Source: Desulfosporosinus sp. Sb-LF (GTDB lineage: Bacteria; Bacillota; Desulfitobacteriia; Desulfitobacteriales; Desulfitobacteriaceae). Taken from it: 64,000 bases of DNA. Made by a program: the position numbers and the translations under genes. This document shows positions 2,362-45,453 of the stretch, one piece after another; position 1 is the first letter of the stretch, and each line of letters begins with the position of its first letter. The notes beneath the pieces are model-generated. The model saw only the letters and a list, made by a program, of their open reading frames with translations. It searched no databases and was not told where the DNA came from. The stretch spans positions 248,001-312,000 of the forward strand of contig NZ_SPQR01000002.1 of the NCBI RefSeq assembly GCF_004766055.1. Direction: 5' to 3'.

Positions 2362-3510
2362 TTATCCAGTTTTCTGCCCCATTTTTATATCCTTCACCAC
2401 TTGGAGCATATCCTCCACAGCTCGCTCTGTTGAGTGACCTGGTAAGGCAACGGCCGCTTTTTCTCGCATTCTCTTGATTTCCTTAGGATTACTCAAGAAA
2501 CGATTTAAGAGCCATCCCAATTCCTCTTCTGTGCCTGCAACGTGTCCTGCACCTATACGTTGCACATAATGTGCATTTTCTTCTTCCTGACCAGGGATTG
2601 GCTTGTAGATAACAAGTGGCAAGTGCTGAGTTAACGCCTCTGTAACCGTTAAACCCCCGGCCTTAGTAATTATCAGATCGGAAACCGACATTAATTCCTC
2701 CACGTTATAAACGTACCCTAACCGTACCATGGGGTTACGAGACTGTTCGATCACGTCTTGCAGGGAGTTGTACAGTTTTTCACTTTTTCCACAAACAATA
2801 ATAGATTGAACCGGTACCAGAGAATCTGCGAGTTTTTGGCAGATTCTTTTCGTTCTTTCCAAACCCCCGTATCCTCCCATCACTAGAAAGGTGGGTAATT
2901 CTGACTTTAGACCTAACTTAGAAATAATATATTGACGATCGATTGGCCCTTCGAATTTTGGGCTGACCGGGATTCCCGTCACAAGAATATCTCGAGAATT
3001 GATTCCCCAGGACTCTAAACTTCCCTTGACATCCTCACATGCCACCATGTATCGATCAACACCCGAATGAACCCAGTGACTGTGAACCGCATAATCTGTA
3101 ATTACGGTGATCACCGGAACGTGAAGAATTTGTTCAAGTCTCAGCTGGGCTAGAATTGAAGAAACGGTGGGATAAGTACATACAATGAGATCAGGTTCAA
3201 ATGCCTGAATATATTTAAGAAAATTGCTTCGTCCCAATTGGTTCAGAAAACGTTGGATCATAGATTTAGGTTGTATCTTAGCTGTTTTATAATAAAACTT
3301 TCCCCAGAGTTTTGGGGTATGTTTAATCATATCAATATAAAATTTTTTCGCCATGATATTGAACCGCTTATTCAAAAAGTCACCAAAATCTAGATGAATA
3401 ATTTCAGCAAGAGGTTCCTTTATACGTATTCCTTCGATAACAGCTTCTGCCGCCCGCATATGTCCATTTCCAAACGCTGCAGAAAATACTAGAACTCTTA
3501 ACTGTTTCAA
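2362..3510 (-). CDS. GT28-type diacylglycerol glycosyltransferase (MGDG synthase / UgtP-like)
   Basis: The 382-residue protein has the two halves of the MGDG-synthase/UgtP family. The N-terminal lipid-binding half contains the GNGH motif at 14-17. The C-terminal GT28 half contains KAGGLTVTEAL and the nucleotide-sugar segment PIPGQEEENA. Such enzymes transfer glucose or galactose from a UDP-sugar to diacylglycerol at the inner membrane face. The start is TTG with GGGGAGGG just upstream. It lies 75 bases after a phospholipase C gene whose promoter carries a Pho box, so its likely role is making glycolipids from diacylglycerol during phosphate shortage. A close paralogue lies at 10303-11457. Sugar and number of transfers cannot be read from sequence. 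Confidence 0.85.
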   Translation of the reverse strand: MKQLRVLVFSAAFGNGHMRAAEAVIEGIRIKEPLAEIIHLDFGDFLNKRFNIMAKKFYIDMIKHTPKLWGKFYYKTAKIQPKSMIQRFLNQLGRSNFLKYIQAFEPDLIVCTYPTVSSILAQLRLEQILHVPVITVITDYAVHSHWVHSGVDRYMVACEDVKGSLESWGINSRDILVTGIPVSPKFEGPIDRQYIISKLGLKSELPTFLVMGGYGGLERTKRICQKLADSLVPVQSIIVCGKSEKLYNSLQDVIEQSRNPMVRLGYVYNVEELMSVSDLIITKAGGLTVTEALTQHLPLVIYKPIPGQEEENAHYVQRIGAGHVAGTEEELGWLLNRFLSNPKEIKRMREKAAVALPGHSTERAVEDMLQVVKDIKMGQKTG

Positions 3511-3585
3511 CTGTTACCCTCCCCATCAACAACCTTTGTACTATCCTTACCTCTGTAGAATAGCCAAATAAAATCGAGCTGAAAT

Positions 3586-4305
3586 CTACGCCAGCCGTAA
3601 CGATAAATCCTGTAATCGCTCAAAGGTAAAATTCAAAAAACCCGCAGAACTAGCAATTGTCAGAGGAATCAACACTTCTGACGCCTCTGTAAAGCTTTCT
3701 TCAGAACACCCTCTCTCCTGTGATACCAGGGGATAGAGAGGCCCAGAAACGCTCGCATTATACTCTATCCATTGAGCAGAGTGAGAAAACGGCATATACA
3801 GCCCCCTTGTTACTGAAAACTCATTCCAGTTTCGAGTTGCCCATGCTTCAAACTCTTTGTGTCCGTCAAAAACAATCCCCAAGGAATGGTGTGGTACACA
3901 CATGTCTTGGACAAGGTGAAGCGCCGCTCCTAAAAAGAACATGCCCTTTGAGACATTTCTCGGGAGAAAAATGGAAGCCTTATTGAAATAGTACTGACAC
4001 TCAGCCATCGCTCCCGGCCACTGAAGGATTCCTTGCTTGTCGGGATTGCGGTAAAAATGATTGACATTCTTCCACCCTCGGTCTGCCCAAAGTAATCCTT
4101 TTGTCAGCATAAAGTGATGAACTTTGAAAAAAGTGGCTATATCTTCTTTTCCATCGTGCTCCAAAACTTCGTATGCTAGATCAAGACAATGAACATGAGT
4201 TAGCCCTGGGGAATCTAGAAAATATTGCAAGGGCCCAACCGGAGCAAGAAGCAACTTTGTCATCTTTCCTAGTGTCTGACCAATAATCTTCTCATACATC
4301 TCCAA
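3586..4305 (-). CDS. Zinc-dependent phospholipase C-like protein
   Basis: The 239 residues match the bacterial zinc-dependent phospholipase C fold. Candidate metal ligands are H37/H39, D75, H83, the H130-x3-D134 pair in HLVQDMCVPHH, H149 and E153 in GHKEFEAW. These enzymes hydrolyse phospholipids to diacylglycerol and a phospho-head group. Unlike secreted toxins of the family it has no signal peptide, so it would act inside the cell on its own membrane. The TTG start follows GAGGTG. It is first in an operon with a glycolipid synthase, behind a Pho-type promoter. Together this suggests phospholipid turnover under phosphate limitation; enzymatic activity is inferred. Confidence 0.75.
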   Translation of the reverse strand: MEMYEKIIGQTLGKMTKLLLAPVGPLQYFLDSPGLTHVHCLDLAYEVLEHDGKEDIATFFKVHHFMLTKGLLWADRGWKNVNHFYRNPDKQGILQWPGAMAECQYYFNKASIFLPRNVSKGMFFLGAALHLVQDMCVPHHSLGIVFDGHKEFEAWATRNWNEFSVTRGLYMPFSHSAQWIEYNASVSGPLYPLVSQERGCSEESFTEASEVLIPLTIASSAGFLNFTFERLQDLSLRLA

Positions 4306-4585: not shown

Positions 4586-6718
4586 ATGTTCAAGTCGGTA
4601 GATATAAGCCAACAAAAGTTATACCGTCTACTCAGAGACGAGAAACCAATCTGGGTGTTGTATCTTGATATTGTTAAATTTCATGAGGTGGAATTTCGTT
4701 ACGGTTACAAAATCTGCCGACAAATCCTAGACGAATTAGAGCGTGAAATTACTCAAACGATTAAACAACAACGCAATATCTACCTGTTCTCTCATTTTGA
4801 AAGCAGGGGCGGGGACGACTTCGTAGTTTATTTTGTTCCTGGTAAAAAAATATATTCAGACATAACTGAAGTCATCGAACAATGGGTTCTCCCTTTGGAA
4901 GAACGGTTTAACCATAGGATTAGGAAACTGGTTAACGAGAAAATAAGCCTACGTTCTGGCCGAAGTGCCGATTATTTACTATATGCGGCTGTGAAAGAGG
5001 CCTTCCTCCTAAACAAATCTGAACCGGATCCCTACTTTTTTGCTCGTCGCGAAGAGATTACCCACCTAATCGAAGAACCTGACACGTACTTGAAAGCCGC
5101 TTTTCAACCGATCATTGAAACCCGAAGCGGAGAAGTGTTTGGTTTTGAAGCTTTGGCCCGTATACCAGATTCTACTTCTTTTAACAATATTGCTGACCTT
5201 TTTCCATTTGCCGAAAAAATAGGTCAGCTCTATCCAATCGAAACTCTTTGCCGGCGCCAAGCTATAAATTCTTACCCAAAGGTTGGCCAAAACCAGGAAA
5301 TGCTCTTTCTCAACATAAATCCCCAGGTCCTAGTCGACCCCGGATTTGCCTCCGGTCATACTAGAAAACTGCTTAGTGACCAAGGGTTGGCACCTTCCGA
5401 TGTTGTGCTAGAAATTACAGAGCGAAGTGCTATAGATGATTTTTCCACATTTCGCGATGCTCTGGATCATTATCGTAGTCAGGGTTACCTTATTGCTTTG
5501 GATGACGTAGGGGCCGGCTACTCCTCTTTGCAGTCCGTAGCAGAGCTTCATCCAGACTTCCTTAAAGTAGACCGATCTTTAATTGTCGGAGTGAATGCTG
5601 ATCCGATCAAATGGGCCTTGCTAGAGACATTTGTCACCTTCTCTAAGCGTATAGGTTGCCGCATCATTGCAGAAGGGGTGGAAACGGAAAAGGAAATGCG
5701 CACGGTGGTCCAATTGGGGGTAGATTACGTACAAGGGTTCTTTGTTGCAAGACCCTCTTTTGAACGAAATAGCATTAACCCCGCCGTTATGGAAATCCTG
5801 GATTCAAAACGAGGGCTTAAATACGTTGAGCAAAACCCTATTATTTCCATGATAGAGCCCTTACCCCTCTTCAATACCAACACCCTGGTCAATACCGTTG
5901 AAACTTACTTCCGTGAGCACCCCCACCAATGGCTGGTGGGGATAACAGAAGACTCCCGTTTAGTCGGTATAATCCAGCGCGACAGGCTATTTGCTGCCCT
6001 AGGAACCCGCTATGGGGTTCCCCTTTATTTAGAACGTACTGTTCCCATATTAATGGACGAAAATCCCCTAATAGTGGAAGAAACCACTCCTTTAGAAGTG
6101 ATGTCCAGCGTAGCTATGCAGCGTCCGGATGCCCAGTTATATGATGGCATTATTGTGGCTAACCAACAAAAGCCAATCGGCGTTGTTTCAGTGGCAAAAC
6201 TAATGAAAGCGATGACCGAGAGGCAAATCCAAATTGCCCGGGGAGCTAGCCCTTTAACAGGGCTGCCAGGCAACCTAAGCATTGAACTGGAGATCCAACA
6301 GTGCCTAGATCAACAATTGTCCTTTGGCCTTATATACGTTGATCTAAATAAATTCAAATACTATAATGACCTTTACGGTTTTCAACAAGGAGACTTAGTC
6401 ATCAAGATGTTAGGTGAGGTTTTGCTAAATGAATGTTACAAAACTGCTGAAGAAACCTTTGTCGGACACATTGGTGGCGATGATTTTATTATTATTTCTT
6501 CACCCTCGGAACTGGAAAAGCTAGCAGTCAACATCCTCACCCAATTTGAACAGTCTTGCGTGCACTTTTCCGGTGCCGAAGGTCTGAGCGTGGCCCTAGC
6601 TGGCCTTGTAATAAACACTACAGATAGAGTTTGGACACCCTTACTCGTTTCCGAGCGAGCTGCCCAAATTAAGAAAGAGGTCAAGGCAATAGAAGGCAAC
6701 TCTTTTTTGTTACGATAG
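4586..6718 (+). CDS. GGDEF-EAL-CBS-GGDEF protein (c-di-GMP turnover)
   Basis: The 710 residues read as four modules. A short GGDEF-like domain (about 15-130) has GGDDF at 75-79. An EAL phosphodiesterase domain (about 165-400) has E188 of the EAL motif, N244, E277, D306-D307 (DDVGAGYSS), K327, E363 and Q383 all present, so it should hydrolyse c-di-GMP. A CBS pair follows (about 425-545), a possible nucleotide sensor. The C-terminal GGDEF domain (about 555-705) has DLNKF and GGDDF at 630-634, so synthesis is also possible; no RxxD inhibitory site is seen before it. AAGGAG precedes the ATG. It heads a two-gene operon with a chemoreceptor behind a Pho-type promoter. Net direction of activity is unknown. 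Confidence 0.92.
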   Translation: MFKSVDISQQKLYRLLRDEKPIWVLYLDIVKFHEVEFRYGYKICRQILDELEREITQTIKQQRNIYLFSHFESRGGDDFVVYFVPGKKIYSDITEVIEQWVLPLEERFNHRIRKLVNEKISLRSGRSADYLLYAAVKEAFLLNKSEPDPYFFARREEITHLIEEPDTYLKAAFQPIIETRSGEVFGFEALARIPDSTSFNNIADLFPFAEKIGQLYPIETLCRRQAINSYPKVGQNQEMLFLNINPQVLVDPGFASGHTRKLLSDQGLAPSDVVLEITERSAIDDFSTFRDALDHYRSQGYLIALDDVGAGYSSLQSVAELHPDFLKVDRSLIVGVNADPIKWALLETFVTFSKRIGCRIIAEGVETEKEMRTVVQLGVDYVQGFFVARPSFERNSINPAVMEILDSKRGLKYVEQNPIISMIEPLPLFNTNTLVNTVETYFREHPHQWLVGITEDSRLVGIIQRDRLFAALGTRYGVPLYLERTVPILMDENPLIVEETTPLEVMSSVAMQRPDAQLYDGIIVANQQKPIGVVSVAKLMKAMTERQIQIARGASPLTGLPGNLSIELEIQQCLDQQLSFGLIYVDLNKFKYYNDLYGFQQGDLVIKMLGEVLLNECYKTAEETFVGHIGGDDFIIISSPSELEKLAVNILTQFEQSCVHFSGAEGLSVALAGLVINTTDRVWTPLLVSERAAQIKKEVKAIEGNSFLLR

Positions 6719-20391: not shown

Positions 20392-21849
20392 TTAGTTTTG
20401 GAGACTTTCTTTGATTTTGACATAAAGCGCAACTTCTAATCGTTTCTTCTGAAGTTCGCACCCCAGCTTATACACTTCTGTCAAGTTTTGAGTAGAGGCC
20501 ACATTCGCTGCGTGACAACCCCCACTGCAGGAAAACCGTGCCCAGCATTCCCGACAAGACACCTTCGAAAAGACATGGGAAGAACGAAAATTTTTAACAA
20601 TTTCAGCCTTGAGTGTATGCGGATTTTCGTTATAGAGTGACCCTAATTTGTAGGCTTCCTGCCCCACAAACTGATGACATGGATAGAGATCTCCCTCTGG
20701 GGAAATTGCCACATACTCGTGACCTGCCCCGCAACCAGAAAGCCGTTTGATCAGGCAAGGTCCTTGATCTAGCGCGACATTGAAATGAAAGAAGTTGAAA
20801 TCGCCTTCTTGTCCACGGCGCATTAACAATTCCTCACCAAGACGATCATAGGCTTCTCGAATCTTATCCAGATCCCCTTCTTGGAATGCGTAAGGATCCT
20901 CTGAACCCGCTACAACGGGTTCCATTGAAATTTGTTTTATTCCTAAATCTGCCATGTGCAAAACATCGCGATCGAAGTCTAAATTAAAATGCGTATACGT
21001 CCCTCTAACATAGTAATATGTCCCCAAGGCGTAGGGCGAGCTTTCTGGACGCTTGGTCGTAAACTGTTGGATACGGGGGGTAATTTCTGCGTAACTCCCT
21101 CGACCATCCGCATGGGGGCGCATCCGATCATGTACCTCGGGGCGTCCGTCTAAGCTTAAAACCACACTGATCTCCTCTTTCTCGAGGAAATCTTGAATTT
21201 CACGGTCTAATAATACTCCGTTCGTGGTCAGCGTAAATTTAATCGTTTTATTTTGGTCTACCGCAGCTTTTCTACCGTATGAGACAAGGGACTTTACCAC
21301 CCCAAAGTTAATCAGCGGTTCTCCACCAAAGAAATCAACTTCGCAATGGTCCCGATGACCCGATGATTCTAGAACAAAGTCGATACCCCTTTTACCTGTC
21401 TCGAAATCCATCAGCATTCTACTTCCACCAAATGCACCCGCTCCAGCAAAACAATATTCGCAACGCAAATTGCAATCATGAGCAACATGCAGACAAATTG
21501 CCTTAACAATCGGCTTTTCCGGGTAGTTGGGCGTTACTCCCTCAGACTCCTTCGAAAAAAGGGAGCCCTCCTTACTGAGCTCTTCAAGTTCTCCCAAAAT
21601 TTCAAAAAGTTCTTCTCCTGTTAGAGCCGGTTTCCCGCCTCTTTCACAGAAGAGGTTAATCCCCTCCAGACTGATCTCTTGCTCTCCCTCTTGTAGGCCT
21701 TCGATAGCTTTAAGCACATTAAACGTTCCCTCATCTAGAACATGCAAGGAACCGGAATTAACGTCATGTGCGATATATAAATCTCCCTGATGATAACTAT
21801 GAACATTCTTCTTGATGCGATATCCCTCAAAATTTAAGAACTGTGACAT
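20392..21849 (-). CDS. scfB: SCIFF peptide radical SAM maturase
   Basis: A 485-residue SPASM-type radical SAM enzyme. The SAM cluster motif is C126-x3-C130-x2-C133 (CNLRCEYC), and the SPASM region carries many cysteines near the C-terminus (CGAGHEY, LYPCHQF, CRECW, CSGGC) for two auxiliary clusters. Such enzymes form thioether crosslinks between cysteines and neighbouring residues of the SCIFF peptide. The N-terminal segment (about 1-105) is the peptide-recognition domain. GAGAGGA lies upstream of the ATG. The substrate gene is directly upstream at 22010-22150. Confidence 0.95.
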   Translation of the reverse strand: MSQFLNFEGYRIKKNVHSYHQGDLYIAHDVNSGSLHVLDEGTFNVLKAIEGLQEGEQEISLEGINLFCERGGKPALTGEELFEILGELEELSKEGSLFSKESEGVTPNYPEKPIVKAICLHVAHDCNLRCEYCFAGAGAFGGSRMLMDFETGKRGIDFVLESSGHRDHCEVDFFGGEPLINFGVVKSLVSYGRKAAVDQNKTIKFTLTTNGVLLDREIQDFLEKEEISVVLSLDGRPEVHDRMRPHADGRGSYAEITPRIQQFTTKRPESSPYALGTYYYVRGTYTHFNLDFDRDVLHMADLGIKQISMEPVVAGSEDPYAFQEGDLDKIREAYDRLGEELLMRRGQEGDFNFFHFNVALDQGPCLIKRLSGCGAGHEYVAISPEGDLYPCHQFVGQEAYKLGSLYNENPHTLKAEIVKNFRSSHVFSKVSCRECWARFSCSGGCHAANVASTQNLTEVYKLGCELQKKRLEVALYVKIKESLQN

Positions 21850-22009: not shown

Positions 22010-22150
22010 TTATTTAACACACACTTGGTTACCAACCGTGCACGACGTCTTACATGCAGATTGGCAAGAGGTCTGACACTTGCCGCATCCTCCGGTCTTC
22101 ACTGTAGCACTTAGGTTTGCTTTCACAATGGTCTGAATGTGTTTTGCCAC
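22010..22150 (-). CDS. scfA: SCIFF (six cysteines in forty-five) ribosomal peptide
   Basis: A 46-residue peptide starting at GTG with GAGGAGGG nine bases upstream. It has six cysteines at 22, 25, 29, 33, 37 and 44 (CGKCQTSCQSACKTSC and VCVK), matching the near-invariant SCIFF precursor of Clostridia. The N-terminal leader MAKHIQTIVKANLSATVKTG is also typical. It is the substrate of the radical SAM maturase encoded just downstream. The biological role of SCIFF is not established. A promoter TTGCCT-18-TATAAT lies upstream. Confidence 0.95.
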   Translation of the reverse strand: MAKHIQTIVKANLSATVKTGGCGKCQTSCQSACKTSCTVGNQVCVK

Positions 22151-22374: not shown

Positions 22375-22404
22375 TTGACGAATTTGCCTAATTATACATA
22401 TAAT
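22375..22404 (+). promoter_or_regulatory. Promoter of the Mg2+ riboswitch operon
   Basis: TTGACG and a perfect TATAAT stand 18 bp apart on the plus strand, about 20 bases ahead of the M-box aptamer. Nothing else in the 220 bases between scfA and the riboswitch looks like a gene. Confidence 0.8.
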
Positions 22405-22423
22405 GAAGTATACATCTGAAACT

Positions 22424-22648
22424 AATCTCTGTTAGGTGAGGCTCCTGCATAGACACAGGCCACTGCCCAGAAATGTCGAGAGACGCCAATTGGGTAGAAC
22501 AGGTATTACCGGCATAAGGTTCTACTTAATGTGGCTGAGAAAACTCTACTCTACGCTATGCAGTGCTAAAGCTCAACGAGAAGGGAGGTCCATAAGGCTT
22601 ACGTTTATTGACCTTCTATTTTGCATAGGGGTCTTTTTATTTTTTTGA
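22424..22648 (+). ncRNA. M-box (ykoK) Mg2+ riboswitch with terminator
   Basis: The conserved M-box landmarks are present in order: GTTAGGTGAGGCTCCT, ACTGCCCAGAAATGTC, AGACGCCAAT, GGGTAGAACAG and GGCATAAGG. A terminator follows: stem at 22610-22633 (GACC...GGTC, ten pairs with two G-U) and then a T-run. An upstream GGAGGTC can pair with GACCTTC as the alternative antiterminator. High Mg2+ should favour the aptamer fold and stop transcription of the transporter genes. Confidence 0.93.
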
Positions 22649-22693
22649 CTTATTATATTCCTCATTTTGGGAGAATTTAAAGGAGGTGGTTTT

Positions 22694-22807
22694 ATGGATT
22701 CTGGCCCTTACCCTTCGCAATCATACAATCTAATTATAATTCATCACAAACGCCGTCAATTTGACAACAAGTTCCAGAATCCATCACCTAAGGAAGAAGG
22801 GATGTAA
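22694..22807 (+). CDS. 37-residue ORF between riboswitch and transport genes
   Basis: The ATG follows a strong AAAGGAGGTGG ribosome site and the TAA abuts the ATG of the next gene with no spacer. The product (starts MDSGPYPSQSYN, ends SPKEEGM) has no membrane segment. The layout implies translational coupling to the MgtE-N/CBS gene. It may be a leader peptide or a small partner protein. I do not recognise a family. Confidence 0.6.
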   Translation: MDSGPYPSQSYNLIIIHHKRRQFDNKFQNPSPKEEGM

Positions 22808-24106
22808 ATGCATGAACTAAAAGTTCTCGGAGAATTTTATTTCAGCCAGTTGACAAACAAGCCGATCTTGGATGCCAAAGGACGTCGTATTGGCAGATTA
22901 CTTGACTTGGCCATACGCTGGGATAGTGTCTCTCCACACGTTACTGGGATACGATATGCCAAAGGGACACTTTCCTTAATTCCCATAGAATGGGTCGTTT
23001 CCTGGGATAAAAACGGTCTACGTCTTAATACCGTTTTCGATCCAATACTAACGTGCCCTCTCCAGGATGATGAAACATTTATTGGGAAATGGCTATTAGA
23101 TAAACAAATTATTGATCTGGTTGGTTCAAGACTAGTACGGGTAAATGATATTTCTTTGTCCTGGGTGTCACACGAGGAGCATCAATTCATCGTTTTAGTT
23201 GCAGTGGATATTGGCGTACGAGGCTTGTTCCGCAGATTAGGTGTTGAATTTCTACTAAGTCGCATTGACAATAATTTTGTAGGCTGCCAATACATCAAAC
23301 CCTTAGAAAATCGAACGTCATCCCTCCAACTCACTCGGGAAAAGGAGCAACTTAGACAGCTTCATCCTGCAGACATCGCCGACATTATTGAAAACATGGA
23401 CTATAAGCAGAGAGCGAATTTCCTAGATACGCTTGATTCCCAACAGACAATCGATGCCTTAACTGAAATGGAGTTAGATGCCCAAGTTGAAGTGATCAAT
23501 CAGATGGACGAAGACCGTGCTTCAGATATCCTTGAAGAAATGCCTCGAGACGAAGCGGCGGATATTTTGAGTGAATTGTCTATAGAGAAGTCTGAGGAAC
23601 TTCTACGTTTAATGGAATCTGATGATGCTGAAGATGTCCGTGAATTAATGCAGTATGAAGAAGATACCGCAGGTTCACTTATGACGACTGAATATATTGG
23701 TTTACCATTCTGGCTTACGGCCGAGCAAGCCATTGATGAATTAAGGAGATTGGCGCCTGAAGCGGAAACTATATATTACCTCTATGTAGTAGATGATCAA
23801 GAAATTCTGGAAGGGGTTCTTTCACTACGAGAACTGATCATTGCTTCCCCTGAGACACCATTAAAAGATTTGATGCATACAAAAATTGTAAAGATTTCCC
23901 CATATGATGATCATGAAAAGGTCGCTGACATCTTTCACAAATATGGCCTATTGGCAGTTCCGGTTGTCGGTGATCAAGCTCAAGTTCTGGGAATTATTAC
24001 AGTGGACGACGTTCTAGAATTATTAATGCCAGAGCGCCCTCGTGTGGAAATCCACTCCACCTTAATCGCCCGCCGCCGTCAGTCGAAAGGAGGACATAGC
24101 GAATGA
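22808..24106 (+). CDS. PRC-MgtE_N-CBS protein without transport domain
   Basis: The 432 residues hold a PRC-barrel-like repeat region (about 1-170), an MgtE N-terminal superhelix (about 175-285, LHPADIADIIENM ... ILEEMPRDEAADIL) and a CBS pair (about 290-415, with DTAGSLMTTEYI and VVGDQAQVLGIITVDD). In MgtE channels these parts sense cytosolic Mg2+ and gate the pore; here the five-helix pore domain is missing. The gene overlaps the next one, an Nramp-like transporter, by four bases (ATGA). Under an M-box riboswitch, the natural reading is a separate Mg2+-sensing regulatory subunit for that transporter. Physical contact is inferred. Confidence 0.85.
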   Translation: MHELKVLGEFYFSQLTNKPILDAKGRRIGRLLDLAIRWDSVSPHVTGIRYAKGTLSLIPIEWVVSWDKNGLRLNTVFDPILTCPLQDDETFIGKWLLDKQIIDLVGSRLVRVNDISLSWVSHEEHQFIVLVAVDIGVRGLFRRLGVEFLLSRIDNNFVGCQYIKPLENRTSSLQLTREKEQLRQLHPADIADIIENMDYKQRANFLDTLDSQQTIDALTEMELDAQVEVINQMDEDRASDILEEMPRDEAADILSELSIEKSEELLRLMESDDAEDVRELMQYEEDTAGSLMTTEYIGLPFWLTAEQAIDELRRLAPEAETIYYLYVVDDQEILEGVLSLRELIIASPETPLKDLMHTKIVKISPYDDHEKVADIFHKYGLLAVPVVGDQAQVLGIITVDDVLELLMPERPRVEIHSTLIARRRQSKGGHSE

Positions 24107-25365
24107 AACTTAAAGAGCGCTTTGCCCTATTCTTCGCCGTTATGGGCCCAGGAATCGTTACTGCGTTTGCTGATAACGATGCCGGAGGGATTGCCACTTA
24201 TGCCGCAGCGGGTGCAAAATACGGTTATTCCCTCATCTTTACCATGCTTGTCAGTACGGTCCTTCTGGCAATTGCTCAAGAAATATCCGCACGCACAGGA
24301 GCCGTAACCGGTCGAGGACTCTCTGACTTAATACGAGAAAACTATGGAGTTAAATGGACCTTCTTTGCCATGAGTGTCCTACTAATCGCTAATCTGGGAA
24401 CGACTGTGTCCGAGTTTTCCGGGATTGCCACAAGCTTTGAAATCTTTGGGATTAGCAAGTATCTTTCCGTACCAGCCATGGCAGCTATTATCTGGTGGCT
24501 AGTCATTAAAACTGATTATGGTAAAATTGAAAAAATCCTCTTACTCCTCTGTTTGACATTCTTTAGTTATGTTATTTCTGGGATTATGGTCAACCCGCCT
24601 TGGCCTCAAGTCTTTGTCGAATCCATTACTCCCACATTCTCAGGAACCCCTGCCTTTTTACTAATGGCCATTGGGGTGATAGGGACAACGATTACCCCCT
24701 GGGGACAGTTCTATGTGCAAGCTTCCGTGGTCGATAAGGGAATCACAGCTAAGGATTATCGTTACACACGCTGGGATGTACTGATCGGAACGTTCTTTAC
24801 TGGTTTTATTGCCTTCTTTATTATTGTCGCTACTGCCGCAACGCTCTATGCCAATAAAATCCCCATAGAAACAGCTATGGATGTGGCCTTGGCCTTAAAG
24901 CCGTTAGCGGGACAATATGCCAGTTTCTTGTTTGGCTTTGGTTTACTTGGTGCATCCATGCTAGCCGCATTTGTGCTTCCTCTAAGTACCGCCTATGCTG
25001 TCTGCGAAGCCTTTGGCTTTGAGCATGGGATTAGCAAATCGCATAAAGAAGCCCCCGCATTCTTCGGACTCTATACCGTCCTTATCGTTTTGGGGGCAGC
25101 CATTGTCTTATGGCCTAATTTATCCTTATATCACGTCATGTTGACGACACAAGTTGTTAATGGGATACTGCTACCCCCTATTCTCATCTTCATGGTGCTA
25201 ATCGCCAGTAAGAAAAGCATTATGGGAGATTACGCAAATACAAAATTCTTCAACATCGTCTCCTGGACCTTCACCTTTATCTTAATCCTTCTAACTCTGC
25301 TTTTACTTGCTTCAACCTTGTTCCCCGAGTTAGTAAGTAACGCTCTAAGCATATTGGGATTATGA
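24103..25365 (+). CDS. Nramp-related Mg2+ transporter (NRMT-like)
   Basis: A 420-residue protein with about eleven TM helices of the Nramp/SLC11 family. The TM1 metal motif DPGN of Mn2+/Fe2+ transporters is replaced by D24-N-D-A-G-G29, and the TM6 MPH motif by T198-P-W200. Loss of that methionine is known from the Nramp-related Mg2+ transporters, some of which are controlled by M-box riboswitches. With an M-box in front, Mg2+ import is the best call. The ATG overlaps the preceding stop, so the two proteins are made together. AAAGGAGG precedes the ATG. Confidence 0.88.
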   Translation: MKLKERFALFFAVMGPGIVTAFADNDAGGIATYAAAGAKYGYSLIFTMLVSTVLLAIAQEISARTGAVTGRGLSDLIRENYGVKWTFFAMSVLLIANLGTTVSEFSGIATSFEIFGISKYLSVPAMAAIIWWLVIKTDYGKIEKILLLLCLTFFSYVISGIMVNPPWPQVFVESITPTFSGTPAFLLMAIGVIGTTITPWGQFYVQASVVDKGITAKDYRYTRWDVLIGTFFTGFIAFFIIVATAATLYANKIPIETAMDVALALKPLAGQYASFLFGFGLLGASMLAAFVLPLSTAYAVCEAFGFEHGISKSHKEAPAFFGLYTVLIVLGAAIVLWPNLSLYHVMLTTQVVNGILLPPILIFMVLIASKKSIMGDYANTKFFNIVSWTFTFILILLTLLLLASTLFPELVSNALSILGL

Positions 25366-30795: not shown

Positions 30796-30932
30796 ACAAA
30801 AAATAAAGTCGCCACCCAGAGTAGGCATGGCGACAGAATTCCTAATTGGTATCCCGGCTATCATCACCCTATCGTGGAAGACCCGTAGCTTTGCGTCCTC
30901 AGCTTTTACTGAGTTTGCCCTTATCAAGATCC
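30796..30932 (-). ncRNA. c-di-GMP-I (GEMM) riboswitch with terminator
   Basis: Minus strand landmarks of the GEMM aptamer occur in order: GGGCAAACTC, a hairpin, GAGGACGCAAAGC, TACGGGTCTTCC, then GATAGCCGGGATACC. A terminator follows: stem GTCGCC / GGCGAC at 30808-30834 and a T-rich run. It controls the downstream chemoreceptor. Whether c-di-GMP turns it on or off needs folding; the terminator position suggests an OFF or ON switch at transcription level. Confidence 0.93.
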
Positions 30933-45355: not shown

Positions 45356-45453
45356 TGGCGGGGATGCGTGCGAATCGAACACACCTCGGAACGTTCTGCG
45401 TCCCGACACGCGGATTTGAAGTCCGGGAGCAGCACCAGCCACCACCCATCCCC
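45356..45453 (-). tRNA. selC: tRNA-Sec (UCA)
   Basis: A 98-base tRNA with long variable arm and encoded CCA. Anticodon loop CTTCAAA gives TCA, which reads UGA. The long acceptor (GGGGATGG / CATCCCC plus G73) is typical of bacterial selenocysteine tRNA. selB lies 8 kb away at 53456-55351. Confidence 0.95.

Follow-up and report, generated by a model that had tools for sequence, protein, structure and literature searches.

The stretch analysed here, called the window in the following, covers 64,000 nucleotides of the genome of Desulfosporosinus sp. Sb-LF. Within it, a single operon is made up of an M-box Mg2+ riboswitch, a short leader open reading frame (ORF), a gene for a pore-less protein of the architecture PRC-PRC-MgtE_N-CBS and a gene for an Nramp-related transporter (Table 1). 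The original prediction, which was made from the sequence alone, had recognised an M-box ahead of both genes, a sensor half of MgtE encoded separately from any pore and a four-base overlap of the sensor gene with the transporter gene, and all of this was borne out. The terminator and the small ORF between the M-box and the sensor gene were absent from it. We read the locus as a Mg2+-import operon that is controlled at as many as three levels and has, in addition, a leader ORF with an acidic start, and we give this reading a probability of about 60%.

Table 1. Features of the Mg2+ operon, with positions counted from the first nucleotide of the window.
Feature	Position	Strand	Basis
Promoter-like site TTGACG-N18-TATAAT (candidate)	22375-22404	+	read directly off the sequence
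M-box Mg2+ riboswitch aptamer	22421-22591	+	RF00380, 155.5 bits (gathering score 44), E 1.3e-35
3' strand of the aptamer, potential anti-terminator by pairing with GACCTTCT	22579-22590	+	alternative fold, -18 kcal/mol
Intrinsic terminator, hairpin proper (22610-22633) followed by T-run	22610-22646	+	hairpin -7.8 kcal/mol; counterpart hairpins in congeners
Shine-Dalgarno sequence of the leader ORF, AAGGAGGTGG, near-perfect	22680-22689	+	sequence; kept in 20 congeners
Leader ORF, 37 codons plus stop, MDSGPYPSQSYNLIIIHHKRRQFDNKFQNPSPKEEGM, start MDSGPYP...	22694-22807	+	conserved start; relatives ahead of Mg2+ transporter genes
Segment complementary to the leader start (CCAGAATCCATCACC), pairs with codons 1-5	22774-22788	+	window fold and consensus of 18 congeners
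PRC-PRC-MgtE_N-CBS protein, 432 amino acids, without pore or plug helix	22808-24106	+	Pfam, nearest solved relatives, AlphaFold2 (AF2) fold, site mapping
NRMT-type Nramp-related transporter, 420 amino acids	24103-25365	+	Pfam Nramp E 1.2e-98; EleNRMT best match; DxxG-TxxT signature

In the protein of 432 amino acids, Pfam detects MgtE_N (E 3.9e-25), CBS (7.9e-15) and, under the Pfam cut-off, PRC (PF05239, 0.0021). The PRC-like part, which had also been predicted, gains support from its detection in 37 of 37 aligned relatives (E up to 0.1, best 9.4e-11). The closest solved relatives are MgtE cytosolic domains, and the AF2 model adopts the MgtE cytosolic fold (TM-score 0.82-0.91 against cytosolic-domain structures). 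Fold searches with this model returned no PRC structure among the matches listed, which are MgtE and CBS structures. Compared with the cytosolic domain of the MgtE channel (PDB 2yvy, 2zy9), the window protein is alike in the N domain, the CBS pair, the site residues D91/D95/D247 and the fold, whereas it is a separate protein, has a PRC pair added and is devoid of the pore and of the plug-helix acids E258/D259. The MgtE pore domain PF01769 was found neither in this protein nor anywhere in the genome of Desulfosporosinus sp. Sb-LF; the detached sensor therefore cannot serve an MgtE channel, and the idea that it works for one encoded elsewhere was ruled out.

With the Mg2+ sites of MgtE from T. 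thermophilus as reference, the corresponding positions were mapped in 95 fragments. In the window protein, D216, D248, D252, D401 and E404 align to MgtE E59, D91, D95, D247 and D250, and the position of D226 is occupied by Gly. D95 is kept in 95 of 95 fragments and E/D59 in 85. The Mg4 pair D91/D247 is retained or lost jointly in 94 of 95 (D/D in 78, both gone in 16, one mixed). The losses comprise S/N in the Syntrophaceae type and A, G or S together with Q in Acidobacteriaceae, and they amount to about two events, because most S/N cases share descent. At the positions of the plug-helix acids E258/D259, the window protein has Arg and Val, and the 95 fragments mostly have basic residues or gaps, in a tail whose alignment is loose. 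Judged by these alignments, the Mg2+-sensing sites are retained and the known output of MgtE is lost. Fragments devoid of the Mg4 pair were seen in L053, L057, L060, L109 (our numbering of loci) and other Syntrophaceae loci as well as in the Acidobacteriaceae loci L093, L107 and L115, and the loci among these that were scanned all lack an M-box; sensing or metal may be different there. In the Syntrophaceae, the sensor gene is closely preceded by PyrR binding site matches on the other strand (-) (L053:3445-3547, L057:3447-3551, L060:3442-3546, L109:3418-3521), which probably belong to a divergent pyrimidine operon as its leader.

For the transporter of 420 amino acids, the closest solved structure is EleNRMT (PDB 7qia) with E 2.4e-110, followed at a distance by the next best match with 4.2e-27. 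DxxG in transmembrane segment 1 and TxxA/T in transmembrane segment 6 are present (DNDAGG; TTITPW) and replace DxxN and A/CxxM. The DNDAGG and TPW motifs of the original prediction are thus there and turn out to be the normal NRMT signature. EleNRMT of Eggerthella lenta (PMC8806188) and the window transporter share the DxxG-TxxA/T signature, the fold and about 45% identity across nearly the whole protein; EleNRMT was studied alone, with no sensor partner in the main text of that report, whereas the window NRMT has an adjoining sensor gene. The signature is near-universal, with few exceptions, among 80 related loci, a uniformity that is partly due to how the loci were found. By its sequence, the window transporter is an NRMT, and we infer that it transports Mg2+. 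In a Chloroflexi contig (L062), two NRMT genes stand in tandem (2883-4185 and 4694-6236) at a locus without a fragment gene.

A different metal has been considered as well. The main substrate of the transporter might be Mn2+ or some other divalent metal, which the fragment would then sense. A. capsulatum NrmT belongs to the same branch, lies beside an MgtE-like fragment without an M-box and acted as a Mn2+ transporter, rescuing a Mn2+ mutant and, weakly, a Mg2+ mutant (PMC4072509). The window operon, however, has an M-box, its transporter carries the signature of EleNRMT, and the genome encodes a separate second Nramp of the canonical type with DPGN/MPH. Moreover, the window fragment keeps the Mg4 pair, in contrast to the Acidobacteriaceae, where fragments occur in three loci and have all lost it. 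We regard Mn2+ or another metal as the main substrate as improbable.

The M-box is the sole one in the genome of 4.27 Mb. The 5' arm of the terminator hairpin can pair either within the hairpin or with the 3' strand of the aptamer, and this layout of terminator and anti-terminator is the customary one for M-boxes working by termination. In Pelosinus, pairs of M-boxes stand in tandem ahead of the same operon (L042:2998-3175 and 3316-3487; L043:3003-3180 and 3311-3481).

The original prediction left it open whether the pairing of an MgtE-type sensor with an Nramp-type transporter had been described, and it proposed a survey of such gene neighbours. The pairing is real but is not new, as it was published by Shin et al. 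2014 (PMC4072509), who named the transporters NrmT, described M-box-controlled operons and reported that most members of the NrmT group have an adjoining gene for a protein similar to the MgtE cytoplasmic domain, often under M-box control. The same guess of cytoplasmic feedback by the MgtE-like fragment was made there. The Ca_c0685 operon of C. acetobutylicum has an M-box, a homologue of the MgtE cytoplasmic domain and an Nramp-related Mg2+ transporter in common with the window operon; the fragment is split into two genes in C. acetobutylicum, whereas it is a single gene in the window (PMC4072509). The main text of Shin et al. 2014 (PMC4072509) mentions no PRC part, CBS or leader ORF and contains no analysis of site conservation. 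Our survey covered 80 named NRMT loci; by their record titles, they represent about a dozen phyla. A fragment gene lies on the strand of the NRMT gene in 71 of the 80 loci and directly upstream in 69, often overlapping; of the nine loci without a same-strand fragment, three are cut by contig ends. New on the pairing, which has been known since 2014, are this spread over 71 of 80 loci with the PRC part, and the conservation of the Mg2+ sites. Distance matrices of fragment and NRMT correlate (r 0.70 against a permutation maximum of 0.15), which shared descent alone could yield.

Several observations speak against a direct coupling of fragment and transporter or limit what can be concluded about it. 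A fusion of both in a single ORF was found in none of the 80 loci, and the frame of 839 amino acids in L024 carries one stop between the genes. From an AF2 model of the tethered pair, in which a stop codon was read as Gln purely as a computing device with no claim of read-through, no interface could be read; structure prediction of the complex, as proposed originally, thus gave confident domains (predicted TM-score 0.72) and nothing on their contact. Two C. acetobutylicum NrmTs rescue a Mg2+-transport mutant and transport without the fragment (PMC4072509). In the only published test, the A. capsulatum pair was expressed in B. subtilis, and co-expression of the fragment gave no better rescue (PMC4072509). 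The weight of this last result is limited, as a rescue assay would not detect an inhibitor. Nothing after 2014 that settles the role of the MgtE-like fragment was found in the literature, and no paper joining PRC-barrel, MgtE and Nramp was found either, in a search beyond whose reach most subscription papers lay. In L024, L048, L049, L076, L077, L090, L095 and L096, the sensor and NRMT genes share a reading frame and are separated by just one stop codon.

The fragment might also have a role other than gating of NRMT, as a Mg2+ buffer or chaperone, as a factor for assembly or stability, or as a PRC-mediated partner of another protein. Such a role would agree with the lack of effect in the co-expression test and with the properties of the second PRC region (amino acids 91-150, window 23078-23257), which is the best-conserved stretch of the sensor, has no counterpart in MgtE and contains D98, Q100, D103, N113, D114, D134, R142 and R143 as invariant residues in 37 sensor sequences. 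This region may be a binding surface or an extra metal site. The near-universal and often overlapping same-strand adjacency to NRMT and the kept MgtE Mg2+ sites argue instead for a shared Mg2+-dependent task, and we consider a role apart from gating unlikely. The most economical reading that we infer is that the fragment, once loaded with Mg2+, inhibits NRMT. The mode must differ from that of MgtE, because the pore-closing plug helix is absent and a basic tail stands in its place.

The leader ORF ends directly at the ATG of the sensor gene. It is present in 20 of 20 congeners with a length of 28-37 codons, and the start M[D/G][S/A]GP is conserved and the remainder is not. Leaders at the same place in Pelosinus, Clostridium and others begin with MDSGPSG, MDDGPER, MEGDPAN, MEADPSH and MESGPYG. 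A Shine-Dalgarno sequence followed by the pattern M[DE]x[GD][PS] was matched 26 times in 41 relatives: 22 matches, including one at a contig edge, are the leader of the sensor gene, one precedes a full-length mgtE gene and three open long genes. In 249 genomes of the phylum, 12 of 12 MDx[GD]P starts lie ahead of corA, mgtE or fragment/NRMT genes. In the named NRMT loci, searched on both strands over 1.545 Mb, 14 of 14 matches to the strict M[DE]x[GD]P are leaders of NRMT operons, and two of the 14 come from loci that have no M-box (L056, L096).

An independent test was made on gene families outside the one that had yielded the motif. The upstream regions of 58 corA and 82 mgtE genes gave 15 strict and 25 loose matches, compared with 0 on the reverse strand. 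When short ORFs preceded by a six-base Shine-Dalgarno match are considered, D/E occupies codon 2 in 49 of 108 before corA/mgtE, as opposed to 36 of 369 in the background and one of 25 before other genes (Fisher 5e-5 for the latter comparison). At least two acids among residues 2-6 occur in 27 of the 108 and in none of the 25. These counts are not fully independent, as some ORFs come from close relatives, and the control genes and the corA/mgtE genes were drawn from different genomes. In Bacillota, short and strongly initiated ORFs whose start is acidic, for example MDxGP, MDGDP, MEGDP or MDDPDAD, precede nrmT, corA and mgtE; they form a family that includes the leader ORF and is the new element of the operon analysis. 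No report of acidic leader peptides before Gram-positive Mg2+ transporter genes was found, again with most subscription papers outside the reach of the search. Upstream of the genome's own CorA-like gene, no leader ORF was found.

Leader peptides of similar kind are known from Enterobacteria only, in the papers found. MgtL (before mgtA) and MgtQ (before mgtB) raise the expression of Mg2+ transporters through ribosome destabilisation; the destabilising motif of MgtL is EPDP, with a need for E2/D4, and MgtQ needs D2/E5, has P4 and possesses a strong Shine-Dalgarno sequence AGGAGG (PMC11282234, PMC8092293). Asp-Pro runs stall B. subtilis ribosomes. Both leaders resemble the Bacillota family in being short ORFs with early acids and a proline before a Mg2+ transporter gene; the members in Bacillota, however, precede nrmT, mgtE or corA, with or without an M-box, and the window copy has a single acid. 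MDGDP and MDDPDAD put acid and proline at early positions equivalent to those in MgtL/MgtQ. In M. tuberculosis, a conserved small ORF, Rv1805A, likewise separates an M-box from the first gene, and its conserved N-terminus has an invariant proline; unlike the window leader, it is called mycobacteria-specific and works with a translational platform and Rho-dependent termination (PMC12810186).

Not everything fits a functional acidic peptide. In the window, MDSGP has D2 and P5 and hence just one acidic residue, compared with two in MgtL and MgtQ, so the strength of this leader is uncertain. At least 4 of the 49 acid-start ORFs look like M-box translations (MEICCCPEMSKDANG-like), which leaves the two-acid class unaffected. 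In 18 congeners, a conserved segment ahead of the Shine-Dalgarno sequence of the sensor gene pairs with codons 1-6, and RNA structure may therefore contribute, as in MgtQ. Taken further, the leader might be an RNA element rather than a functional peptide, with its start conserved for this pairing: the 11 pairs show few broken cells, and variable wobble bases mostly fall outside the leader pairs. Yet compensatory changes were found in no leader RNA pair of the 18 congeners, and no clear on/off switching of the Shine-Dalgarno sequence of the sensor gene was seen when the leader start is covered. A strong Shine-Dalgarno sequence precedes each leader ORF. The same residues recur through varied codons (GAC/GAT/GAA; CCT/CCC/CCA/CCG) in unrelated corA, mgtE and nrmT leaders, most of which have no special pairing of the start, and this points to selection on the peptide. 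A pure RNA element seems to us somewhat unlikely.

With the acidic-start peptide retained as the preferred reading, control of the operon can be pictured as follows. At high cytosolic Mg2+, the M-box, assigned by homology, would halt transcription at the terminator, a mechanism established for this RNA family. NRMT would admit Mg2+, as its signature and nearest relative suggest, and the PRC-MgtE_N-CBS protein would read cytosolic Mg2+ through the sites of its MgtE N-domain and CBS pair. The Mg2+-loaded fragment, with these sites conserved, might then bind to the cytosolic face of NRMT and lower its activity. At low Mg2+, by analogy with MgtL/MgtQ, ribosomes may drop off the acidic leader codons, the leader RNA would refold and transporter expression would be favoured. 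Control at the RNA and the protein level, as originally predicted, agrees with the parts and their identities; the coupling of fragment and transporter is its conjectural part, with no better rescue in the published co-expression. More broadly, acidic-start leaders could be a widespread ribosome-based Mg2+ sensor for corA, mgtE and nrmT in Bacillota and some Nitrospirota, stacked here with an M-box and a detached MgtE-type sensor, and Mg2+ would be read for a single importer by RNA, by the ribosome and by a protein; to this generalisation, drawn by analogy, we grant a little less than an even chance.

Through this module, the role of the MgtE-like fragment beside NrmT becomes testable. D91 and D247 of the Mg4 site, which are retained or lost together, offer themselves as residues to probe, and Syntrophaceae and Acidobacteriaceae are lineages in which different sensing would be expected. 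If the leader family is functional, ribosome-based Mg2+ sensing would reach a second large phylum beyond Enterobacteria, and CorA, MgtE and NRMT, and a riboswitch and a leader peptide would be used in series.

The genome also encodes one CorA-like GMN protein and a CorA-like fragment, and NRMT as the sole Mg2+ importer was rejected on account of the former. Divergent from the Mg2+ operon lie a gene for a small Cys-rich peptide (MAKHIQTIVKANLSATVKTGGCGKCQTSCQSACKTSCTVGNQVCVK, 22010-22150, -) and a radical-SAM maturase-like gene (20392-21849, -), which we take to be a SCIFF-type pair. Further along the window, a c-di-GMP-I-GGC riboswitch (30844-30928, -) and a selenocysteine tRNA (45360-45453, -) were detected.

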